Below are positions 42,535 through 45,872 of a DNA stretch of 52,739 bases, piece after piece. Both the position numbers and the translations under genes were made by a program. Source of the DNA: Deltaproteobacteria bacterium (GTDB lineage: Bacteria > Desulfobacterota > Binatia > Binatales > Binataceae); the NCBI GenBank assembly GCA_021780225.1, contig JAJXZF010000092.1, positions 1-52,739 of the forward strand, written 5' to 3'. The notes beneath the pieces were generated by a model that had not been told where the DNA came from, searched no databases, and saw nothing but the letters and a program-made list of their open reading frames with translations. Position 1 is the first letter of the stretch; every line of letters starts with the position of its first letter.

Positions 42535-42550
42535 CGTTTCACGTGAAACA
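42535..42550. promoter_or_regulatory. parS-like centromere site
   Basis: CGTTTCACGTGAAACA matches the ParB-binding consensus TGTTNCACGTGAAACA at 15 of 16 positions; only the first base differs. The inner 14 bases are a perfect palindrome. It sits in the short gap between the serine hydrolase and the OsmC-family gene. parS sites usually lie near the replication origin and load ParB and SMC. Confidence 0.8.
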
Positions 42551-42595
42551 TCGCGCCTGACGGCGGCGCGATCGCGATGACGGAGGCGAGTCGAA

Positions 42596-43036
42596 ATGGC
42601 GGATAGATATATCAATCCGAAAGTCAAAACCGTCAGCACCGGAATTCCGGGGCGGCATCTGTGGAGCGCCCGGCACAACCATCTCGTGGTGGACGACGGC
42701 GCCTACCACGGCGGACCGGGCGAGGCGCCCGGCGCGGGCGAGCTGTTCCTGGCCGGCATCACCGGATGCGCCACGCACATGGTCGAGCGGCTGGCGCACG
42801 CCGCCAACGCGCCGCTCAAGCGGGTCGAGGTCGCGATGGAGGCGATGATCGACACGCAGGCGAAGCGCGAGGGGCCGGCGATTTTCGAAAACGCCCGCCT
42901 GCATTTCACAATCGCGGGCGTCGATGAAAAACTCGCGCGCGAATTCGTCGAGACCTACAAACGCCATTGACCGCTGTACGGATCGGTCGCGGTCGCGACC
43001 GCCGACACCACCGTCGAGCTGACGGTTCTGCCCTGA
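42596..43036 (+). CDS. OsmC-family peroxidase-like selenoprotein (UGA = Sec125)
   Basis: The gene has GGAGG 9 bases before the ATG. Reading stops at UGA 42968-42970 after 124 codons, but the same frame continues as PLYGSVAVATADTTVELTVLP to a UGA at 43034-43036, giving 146 aa, the normal OsmC length. The UGA falls exactly at the family's second conserved cysteine (ETYKRH-U-PLYGSV, where relatives have Cys-Pro). The first redox cysteine, C58 in LAGITGCATHMVERLAH, is present. OsmC/Ohr proteins reduce organic hydroperoxides with these two cysteines. A SECIS-like hairpin follows the UGA, so selenocysteine insertion is the best explanation. OsmC-like selenoproteins have been reported in metagenomic surveys, as I recall. 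Sec machinery must lie elsewhere. Confidence 0.87.
42979..43004 (+). promoter_or_regulatory. Bacterial SECIS element
   Basis: CGGTCGC (42984-42990) pairs perfectly with GCGACCG (42995-43001) around the loop GGTC. A further CGG/CCG pairing (42979-42981 with 43002-43004) extends the stem below a 2-base AU bulge. The first loop G is 21 bases after the UGA. The E. coli fdhF SECIS has the same GGUC loop at +19 with a bulged U in the stem. All this lies inside the coding sequence, as bacterial SECIS elements do. Confidence 0.85.
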
Positions 43037-43175: not shown

Positions 43176-45872
43176 ATGCGTTGGACCACCGATAAAATTC
43201 GCCAGTCGTTTCTTGATTTCTTCAAGGAGAAGAAACACGAGATTGTTCCGTCGGCGCCGCTGGTTCCCAAGGGCGACCCGACGCTGTTGTTCGTCAACGC
43301 CGGGATGGTTCCGTTCAAGGATTATTTCCTGGGCGTGCGCACGCCGCCGGCGCCGCGCGTCGCCGATTGCCAGAAGTGCCTGCGCATCTCGGGCAAGCAT
43401 AACGACCTCGAAGCGGTCGGCCGCGACAGCTATCACCACACCTTCTTCGAGATGCTCGGCAACTGGTCGTTCGGCGACTACTACAAGCGTGAGGCGATCG
43501 CGTGGCATTGGGAACTGGTGACGAAGGTCTGGGAGATTCCGGCCGACCGGCTCTACGCGACGATTTACAAGGACGACGACGAGGCCGAGGCGGCGTGGAA
43601 AACGATTCCCGATCTGTTGCCCGGCCGGATTTTGCGCTTCGGCGAGAAGGACAATTTCTGGGAGATGGGCGAGACCGGGCCGTGCGGACCCTGCTCGGAA
43701 ATCCATATCGATCGCGGCGCGGAGGCGTCGGCGCAGTGTCCGCATCCGGCGGGCGAATGCGGCGTGAACGTGGACGGATGCGCGCGATATATCGAACTGG
43801 GTAATCTGGTTTTTATCCAGTACAACCGCGACGCTGCGGGCAAGTTGACGCCGCTGCCGATGAAGCACGTCGATACGGGAACGGGACTCGAGCGGGTCGC
43901 GGCGGTGATGCAGAGCCTCGAGACCGGCAGGCTGCTCGGCAACTACGATATCGACTTGTTTCGGACGATCATCGCGGGTATCGAGACGCAGGTTCAAACG
44001 CTGGCGAGAAATACAGCGATTTTCCGCTACGGTCAAAATGCCCAGTCCGATATCTCATTTCGGGCGATCGCAGATCATGCGCGTGCGATTAGTTTTCTCA
44101 TTTGCGATGGCGTTCAGCCCGGCAATAGCGATCGCGAATATGTATTGCGGCGCCTGATGCGCCGCGCGATCCGGCACGCGCATAAACTTGGCGTACCGGC
44201 GTCGGGCGGATCGCTTGCGGTCTTTCTTTTCAGCGTTGTCCAATACGTCGTCGATGTGATGGGCGACGCATACAAGGAGCTGCGCGATAACAAACCAAAA
44301 ATTGTTTCGGTATGCGGCGACGAGGCGCGCCGGTTCGAACAGACGCTGGAGCGCGGACTGCAATTGCTCGAGGAATGGCGCGAGCGGCGGCGCACGATCA
44401 AAAGCGCCGTCTTTCCCGGCGATGTCGCGTTTCAGTTGCACGACACCTACGGATTTCCGCTCGATCTGACGCAGGACATCCTGCGCGAGGACGGCTTCAC
44501 CGTCGACGTCGAGGAATTCAATCGCCTGATGGAGGAGCAGCGCGAACGCGGACGCGCCGCCCGGCTTGAACCGCGTCCCTACGATATGAGCTTCTATGCG
44601 GAATTTGGCGCAAGCTCAAAATTTATCGGTTACGAGGAGGCCGCGGTCGAAACCAAAATAATAGGCTCTGGAACCAGTTCGATCGAAGGAAAAGATAATA
44701 TCGTTGAATTAGTCGCCGCCGAGACGCCCTTCTACGCCGAGAGCGGCGGTCAGGTCGGCGATCGCGGCGTGATCGAAACCGACGACGGAGCGATTTTCGA
44801 GGTAACGGACACTCGCAAGCGCGATGGGTTAATTGTGCACGTCGGGCGGATCCTGCAAGGGGCGGCGGGCGACTTCGCGCGCGGCAAACGCGTCAAGCTA
44901 AAGATCGATCGGGCGCGGCGGGACGCTGCGATGCTCAACCATTCCGCGACCCACATTCTGCATTACGCGCTGCGCGATATCGTCGGCGCGGAGGTCCATC
45001 AGGCGGGTTCGATGGTCGCGCCGGAGCGGCTGCGTTTCGACTTCAGCCACAACGGCCCGGTGGGCGAGGGCGAGCTCGCGACGATCGAAGAAGAGATCAA
45101 CGCGCGTATCCGCGAGAACGCCGCCGTCGCGACCGAGGAGATGGCTTACGACGCGGCGCTCAAGACCGGCGCGCTGGCGTTTTTCGGCGACAAGTACGGG
45201 GATATCGTGCGGGTCGTGCGGATGGGCGATTTTTCGACCGAGTTGTGCGGCGGCACGCACGTCGCGCGGACGGGCGATATCGGCTTCTTCAAGCTCGAAA
45301 GCGAAGGCGGGGTCGCGGCGGGAGTGCGCCGGATCGAGGCGTTCACCGGACAGGGCGCGCTCGAGTCGATTCGGCGGCGCGAAAAAATACTGGACGAGCT
45401 GGGGCGGAGTCTCGGCGCGCGCGACGCCGCCGCGCTCGATCGGCTGGAGAAGCTGGTCGCGAGGGAGAAGGAGCTGGAAAAAAAGCTCCGTGCGCTCGAA
45501 CAAAAGCTGGTCGCCGGCGCGGGAGCGGGCGGAGACGCCGAGCGGGTGCGCGAGGCCAACGGCGTCAAAATCGTCACGCGCAAGGTCGAGGGCGTCGAGG
45601 CCAAGGCGTTGCGCGAGCTGGCCGACCGGATGCGCCAGAAGCACGGCTCGGCGGTGGTCGGAATCGGCACGGATTTGGGCGAGGGCAAGGCGGCGCTGAT
45701 CGTTGCGGTGACGCCGGACCTGACGGGCCGAATCAAGGCCGGCGAGATTATCAAGCGGATTGCGCCGATCGTCGGCGGGACGGGTGGCGGACGGCCGGAC
45801 TTCGCGCAGGCGGGCGGCCGCGACGCCTCGCGGCTCGACGAAGCGCTGGAACAGATCGCCTCGCTGGTGTGA
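43176..45872 (+). CDS. alaS: Alanyl-tRNA synthetase
   Basis: The product is 898 aa, a normal length. Class II motifs are seen in SYHHTFFEMLGNWSFGDYYK and FWEMGETGPCGPCSEIHID; GTGLERVAAVMQ completes the active site. The editing domain has NHSATHILHYALRD (HxxxH) and the zinc-binding CGGTHVARTG. The C-terminal DHHA1 domain ends with VGGTGGGRPDFAQAGG. It charges tRNA-Ala. Two stretches (about 43970-44330 and 44590-44720) are visibly AT-richer with different codon choice, which suggests past recombination with a foreign alaS. The frame is intact throughout. Confidence 0.97.
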   Translation: MRWTTDKIRQSFLDFFKEKKHEIVPSAPLVPKGDPTLLFVNAGMVPFKDYFLGVRTPPAPRVADCQKCLRISGKHNDLEAVGRDSYHHTFFEMLGNWSFGDYYKREAIAWHWELVTKVWEIPADRLYATIYKDDDEAEAAWKTIPDLLPGRILRFGEKDNFWEMGETGPCGPCSEIHIDRGAEASAQCPHPAGECGVNVDGCARYIELGNLVFIQYNRDAAGKLTPLPMKHVDTGTGLERVAAVMQSLETGRLLGNYDIDLFRTIIAGIETQVQTLARNTAIFRYGQNAQSDISFRAIADHARAISFLICDGVQPGNSDREYVLRRLMRRAIRHAHKLGVPASGGSLAVFLFSVVQYVVDVMGDAYKELRDNKPKIVSVCGDEARRFEQTLERGLQLLEEWRERRRTIKSAVFPGDVAFQLHDTYGFPLDLTQDILREDGFTVDVEEFNRLMEEQRERGRAARLEPRPYDMSFYAEFGASSKFIGYEEAAVETKIIGSGTSSIEGKDNIVELVAAETPFYAESGGQVGDRGVIETDDGAIFEVTDTRKRDGLIVHVGRILQGAAGDFARGKRVKLKIDRARRDAAMLNHSATHILHYALRDIVGAEVHQAGSMVAPERLRFDFSHNGPVGEGELATIEEEINARIRENAAVATEEMAYDAALKTGALAFFGDKYGDIVRVVRMGDFSTELCGGTHVARTGDIGFFKLESEGGVAAGVRRIEAFTGQGALESIRRREKILDELGRSLGARDAAALDRLEKLVAREKELEKKLRALEQKLVAGAGAGGDAERVREANGVKIVTRKVEGVEAKALRELADRMRQKHGSAVVGIGTDLGEGKAALIVAVTPDLTGRIKAGEIIKRIAPIVGGTGGGRPDFAQAGGRDASRLDEALEQIASLV

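Follow-up and report, generated by a model that had tools for sequence, protein, structure and literature searches.

An OsmC/Ohr-fold selenoprotein with predicted selenocysteine at the position of the resolving cysteine

Introduction

Proteins of the Ohr family act on hydroperoxides through two redox cysteines. In the account of the Xylella fastidiosa (X. fastidiosa) enzyme given in PMC5962072, Arg19 and Glu51 hold the peroxide for attack by Cys61, and the sulfenic acid is then resolved by Cys125, with formation of a disulfide that a lipoylated protein reduces; the dependence on lipoyl groups is also described in PMC8945050. Selenium has been reported on the same fold, and the selenoprotein tables in PMC1088965, PMC2398784, PMC9312934 and PMC13188914 give one OsmC-like family, with the motif UxxT. 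We infer that the NCBIfam family NF041052 (OsmC-related (seleno)protein) corresponds to this published family ("OsmC-like protein, UxxT" in the tables of reviews and of the Sargasso Sea and GOS surveys).

Here, we describe a gene from a member of the Binataceae (Deltaproteobacteria bacterium, contig JAJXZF010000092.1) which, as far as its sequence and those of its relatives can tell, very probably encodes an OsmC/Ohr-fold selenoprotein with selenocysteine (Sec) at the position of the resolving cysteine. A preliminary description of the locus had mentioned the OsmC-like selenoprotein of marine surveys as a precedent, but that protein belongs to a different family, in which Sec takes the place of the first cysteine (UxxT).

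The gene and its reading frame

The gene lies on the forward strand of a stretch of 52,739 nucleotides, hereafter the window, by which we mean the whole of the DNA analysed. Its features are as follows.

42582–42586, forward strand: Shine-Dalgarno-like GGAGG, 9 nt 5' of the ATG, read from the sequence.
42596–43036, forward strand: putative OsmC/Ohr-fold selenoprotein gene, 146 amino acids with Sec125.
42653–42655, forward strand: codon of Arg20, which may correspond to the catalytic Arg19 of X. fastidiosa Ohr; present in all 14 orthologues.
42740–42742, forward strand: codon of Glu49, which corresponds to the catalytic Glu51 of the X. fastidiosa enzyme; unchanged in all 14.
42767–42769, forward strand: codon of Cys58, counterpart of the peroxidatic cysteine; invariant in 14 of 14, and aligned with Cys in all five alignments with solved chains.
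42968–42970, forward strand: in-frame UGA, predicted Sec125, counterpart of the resolving cysteine; UGA in 14 of 14.
43034–43036, forward strand: terminal stop of the read-through frame, also UGA, read from the sequence.

The frame opens with the ATG at 42596, runs for 124 codons to the UGA at codon 125, continues for 21 codons (PLYGSVAVATADTTVELTVLP) and closes at the second UGA. The preliminary description had given the same 124 codons, UGA, 21 codons and 146 residues, and its frame and coordinates are confirmed; what it called a normal stop does end the frame, but is itself a UGA. It was also right that the first cysteine (Cys58) is intact and that automatic annotation truncates the protein, as gene calling with translation table 11 cuts it at 124 residues and thereby hides the second active-site residue. 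Read through, the protein is a member of the Pfam family OsmC (PF02566; 49.7 bits, cut-off 27.5), and the match covers residues 40–132, on both sides of the UGA. The two redox positions, Cys58 and Sec125, are 67 residues apart. A mechanical search of the window gave 50 other candidate frames interrupted by UGA, none of them convincing by eye.

Orthologues and their distribution

A protein search of 145 related genomes matched 19 of them at E ≤ 0.001, and 14 of these 19 (own copy counted) carry a close orthologue (E ≤ 2.1e-44). The other close orthologues are about 55–99% identical to the window protein, and the remaining, distant matches score 21–28 bits; one of the latter (G143:C4) also has a TGA and belongs to the first-position family NF041052. 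Each of the 14 close orthologues has exactly one internal stop, a TGA. It falls in a single alignment column at all 14 loci, in the context K-x-x-U-P-L-(Y/F)-G-S-(V/I)-A-V-A.

The same 14 genomes stand out when 148 genomes of the class are searched with a profile (E ≤ 1e-6, at most 26 candidates scored per genome). Seventeen genomes matched: these 14 have the TGA and at least 233 bits, and eight other matches have no stops and score at most 43 bits. Among these 148 genomes, with up to 26 candidates scored in each, we found no orthologue with Cys at position 125. The pairing of Sec with Cys is therefore judged on distant Ohr/OsmC proteins.

Thirteen of the 14 carriers are among the 41 genomes of the window's own family. 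The fourteenth (G104) is assigned to another family, and its gene lies on a 5.9-kb contig of an assembly in about 1040 pieces; given this fragmentation and the short contig, its orthologue may have been mis-binned. The G104 assembly holds both kinds of putative OsmC selenoprotein: L060 has Sec at the first position and L038 at the second. Near L038 lies another ORF (L100, 1027–1554) that by eye looks similar to the OsmC-like protein of L002. Among 395 sampled genomes of the phylum (E ≤ 1e-12, at most 10 candidates scored per genome) four matched, all from the own family, and a scan of genome contigs, which reaches close relatives only, gave four loci, all in congeners and all with the TGA. Plasmids had no match to the gene at E ≤ 1e-3, and the 34 pattern matches on viral contigs included no relative.

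Comparison with Ohr and roles of the two redox residues

In four of the five alignments with solved Ohr/OsmC chains, i.e., all four that reach it, position 125 is aligned with the cysteine of a Cys-Pro pair, the conserved second cysteine. Glu49 is aligned with Glu in four of the five (Ala in 3cje), and Arg20, reached by two alignments, is aligned with Arg in 3eer and not clearly so in 4mh4. The window protein thus shares with Ohr (e.g., PDB 3eer and 9jx6) the two redox positions, the glutamate and the proline that follows the second redox residue, and probably the active-site arginine. It differs in having Sec where Ohr has the resolving cysteine, and it is far from the Ohr family model (TIGR03561; 22.3 bits, cut-off 88.85). 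Structure prediction from five near-identical sequences had a pLDDT of 51.7 and was unusable.

By homology to Ohr, Cys58, close to Glu49 and probably Arg20, would reduce an organic hydroperoxide. Sec125 would then attack the sulfenic acid of Cys58 to give a selenenyl-sulfide, which a dithiol would in turn reduce; as in Ohr, this dithiol is probably a lipoylated protein. We regard this complete cycle, with a peroxidatic Cys58, a resolving Sec125 and recycling by a dithiol, as having roughly even chances of being correct. Cys58 is favoured as the attacking residue and Sec125 as the resolving one because of the conservation of the residues and the alignments with Ohr. The suggestion of the preliminary description that Sec makes a more reactive peroxidase is unproven: since position 125 is the resolving one by homology, selenium would more naturally speed resolution or recycling than the first attack on the peroxide.

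Two other assignments can be made given Sec at position 125. In the first, the roles are swapped, with Sec125 attacking the hydroperoxide and Cys58 resolving the selenenic acid. The attacking residue of selenium peroxidases is usually Sec, and the known OsmC-like selenoprotein, with Sec at the first Cys, indicates that the attacking position of the fold can take selenium. We nevertheless consider a swap the less likely assignment, though a serious alternative: Cys58, Glu49 and Arg20 are kept in all 14 orthologues, as expected if Cys58 is still activated, and in Ohr it is the first cysteine that is activated by Arg and Glu (in the account of PMC5962072). In the second, the protein is a thiol/selenol redox protein acting on a substrate other than a hydroperoxide. 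The scores below the NCBIfam cut-offs are compatible with this (that for Ohr given above, and 38.6 bits against a cut-off of 95 for NF041052, OsmC_like_Se), and the neighbouring alaS offers no functional hint. This assignment seems doubtful to us in view of the retention of the Ohr glutamate, first cysteine and second redox position, and probably of the arginine.

Conservation on both sides of the UGA codon

The sequence after the internal UGA is a conserved coding tail. In the 13 codons 3' of the UGA, the 14 orthologues have 5, 3 and 9 variable sites at codon positions 1, 2 and 3, and in the 80 codons 5' of it the corresponding numbers are 60, 44 and 76. The tails of the congeners L029, L031 and L032 differ from that of the window by synonymous changes only. 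In L033 one silent change is joined by 2 amino-acid changes, and the tails of L040 and L041 have 5 and 8, and 5 and 7, respectively; in the last two the counts are out of register late in the tail because of an extra residue there. The read-through frame is 144–150 codons long in 13 of the 14 (164 in L036). Its terminal stop varies (UGA in eight, UAG in four, UAA in two) and the internal UGA is constant. The internal UGA is not there by chance: the same codon, followed by a conserved tail, is found in all 14 orthologues.

Selenocysteine machinery

The genome that carries the window has selA, selB, selC and selD. The scores exceed the family cut-offs for selA (566.9 bits, cut-off 267.9), selB (370 bits, cut-off 242.25) and selD (387.3 bits, cut-off 125). 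The selD gene (L026, G000:C17:116918–117844), about 3 kb from selB on the same contig, has one in-frame UGA, in AGUAGK, and its product, selenophosphate synthetase, is likely a selenoprotein itself. Four Rfam matches to tRNA-Sec are over the cut-off, three of which ARAGORN calls tRNA-SeC and the fourth tRNA-Ser. The three tRNA-SeC (UCA) genes are at C18:23069–23160 (L012), C18:25930–26021 (L013) and C70:11402–11488 (L014); two are near-copies about 2.8 kb apart, and the third is more divergent and lies in a 7-kb stretch of lower GC content (58% vs 64–65% in other stretches).

Among the 41 genomes of the own family, tRNA-Sec was found in 34 by a search at E ≤ 1e-9. Apart from the genome of the window, 32 have one such gene, G017 has a pair separated by about 4 kb, and seven have none. 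Two of the 13 own-family carriers (G016 and G024) had no match at this threshold, possibly owing to incompleteness or to the stricter filter applied there. A selA over the family cut-off is present in every one of the 14 carrier genomes. This co-occurrence is consistent with the use of Sec without being telling, because 120 of the 145 relatives also have selA over the cut-off (123 at E ≤ 0.001).

A hairpin downstream of the UGA codon

A SECIS-like hairpin can be drawn within the tail.

42985–43000, forward strand: GGTCGC-GGTC-GCGACC, six pairs, loop at 42991–42994.

It starts 15 nt after the UGA and its loop 21 nt after it. Bacterial SECIS models call for a small loop, with a G near its start, some 16–37 nt after the UGA, and the placement and loop G of the window hairpin fit them. 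All six pairs can form in each of the 14 distinct sequences (84 of 84 cells), and sliding the partners by 1–3 columns lowers the pairing to 21–69%. One pair shows compensation (A-U in L039 and L040, G-C in eleven sequences, G-U in L041), and another is U-G in three sequences in place of U-A. When the 3' letters were shuffled, the observed pairing was reached in 12 of 500 trials; for doubly changed pairs, 212 of 500 trials reached the observed count of one. The loop consensus is NGTN, in which a valine codon by itself would also fix the GU. These statistics are drawn from 14 related sequences.

The conservation of wobble bases gives a stronger signal of the hairpin than pair counts or energy. 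Across the 14 sequences, 8 of 92 codon columns keep the same third base throughout, two of them being Met. Four of the eight are codons +5, +6, +9 and +10 after the UGA, whose third bases pair with each other, and the third bases of the loop codons +7 and +8 vary. By energy, the region is no stabler than its synonymous recodings (z between -1.5 and +0.7 across the 14 sequences), and random synonymous codons yield all six pairs with a probability of 0.23–0.25 in the five sequences tried. Over the 51 nt that start at the UGA, the predicted pair probability of the hairpin is about 0.3 for two sequences (L029, L032) and 0 for two more (L040, L041); when folding starts at nt 10 after the UGA, the hairpin dominates in 12 of 14 sequences, the exceptions being L037 and L041, and the L041 hairpin, folded by itself, is weak (-2.9 kcal/mol). 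The selD gene of the same genome also allows a similar hairpin to be drawn, with its loop 18 nt after the UGA; the predicted minimum-energy fold there is a different one.

Taken together, the UGA in 14 of 14 orthologues, the conserved tail, the sel genes and the conserved hairpin support the proposal of the preliminary description that UGA 125 encodes Sec, and that the gene encodes a selenoprotein by Sec insertion at this codon is strongly supported by the sequence data. SelB, bound to the hairpin 15–30 nt after the UGA, would deliver Sec-tRNA-Sec, and the codon would be read as Sec. If UGA 125 were instead a true stop, the product would be a protein of 124 residues without the second redox residue and the tail would be a relic. 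This is how translation table 11 reads the gene, and UGA does end the read-through frame in eight of the orthologues, but a relic tail would hardly be conserved as protein in all 14, next to a conserved hairpin and in a genome with the Sec machinery, and we hold this reading to be very improbable. For a sequencing error or a reassigned UGA (e.g., as Trp) we found no supporting point, and the chance of either is negligible given the same UGA in 14 genomes, its use as terminator in eight of them, and the lack of internal stops in alaS (898 codons), selA and selB.

Genomic neighbourhood

The gene has a conserved neighbour.

43176–45872, forward strand: alaS, 898 codons.

The neighbourhoods were compared systematically for the carriers other than G001, G003 and G006. 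In the window, as well as in G004, G010, G013, G016 and G024, the gene immediately precedes alaS (at a distance of about 0.75 kb in G016), and alaS is within about 9 kb of it in G018, G019, G021 and G032; alaS was not seen on the short contig of G104. This linkage points to a mostly vertical descent of the gene. In the 1700 bases examined at alaS in the non-carriers G002, G005, G007 and G012, we found no remnant of the gene (best tblastn E of 6.5).

A 16-base site (CGTTTCACGTGAAACA) at 42535–42550, 45 nt 5' of the gene, is one mismatch away from what we take to be the consensus of parS, the site bound by ParB in chromosome partition. It is the sole match in the window with at most two mismatches, and 100 shuffles gave none. 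Its 14-base core is also present in the loci of the congeners G001, G003, G004 and G006, which are carriers, and G005, which is not.

Relation to the first-position family and to other selenoproteins

Thirty of the 145 relatives have a match to NF041052 above its cut-off, and none of these genomes belongs to the window's own family; the protein occurs in other families of the same class. Of the 30 loci that were read, 29 combine a UGA at the first cysteine position with an intact second cysteine, and one (L082) has Cys instead of the UGA. The motif is UxxT in 28 of the 29 and UxxS in L081. Some genomes (e.g., G133 and G135) have several UGA-bearing copies (L053–L081 are examples from relatives of the class). 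The window protein has the motif UxxY (U125-P-L-Y) and keeps Cys58, a pattern other than the UxxT with Sec at the first cysteine.

In a tree made with the Sec columns masked, a branch with support 100/99 separates the two Sec groups, in a topology where 7 of 21 inner branches are open and long branches meet. Five distant Cys paralogues are not separated from the second-position group in this tree, and that group is set apart from them because of the gap in profile scores (at least 233 vs at most 43 bits). The simplest reading is that Sec was gained twice, separately, on the OsmC fold. We think it probable that the window gene represents a second, separately evolved OsmC-fold selenoprotein, with Sec at the resolving position and found only in the Sec form in the genomes searched, and that the fold has recruited selenium at both of its complementary active-site positions. 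In the sampled passages of open-access papers, we found no OsmC/Ohr protein with Sec at the second position, and neither OsmC nor hydroperoxide occurs in the main text of the 2025 deep-Sep paper; such a protein may already be listed somewhere in the literature.

The order of the two redox residues is that of the CxxU selenoproteins (AhpD-like and SelW-like), which also have Cys first and Sec second. Their pair forms a CxxU motif, as given in PMC1088965, whereas the Cys and Sec of the window protein are far apart in the sequence. With NF041052, the window protein shares the OsmC fold, a Sec predicted from an in-frame UGA and a predicted hairpin, whose loop is 20–21 nt after the UGA in the five NF041052 loci folded. 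The two families differ in that NF041052 has Sec first and keeps the second cysteine, whereas the family of the window gene has the reverse, Cys first and Sec second. They would offer a natural comparison, within one fold, of selenium as the attacking and as the resolving residue.
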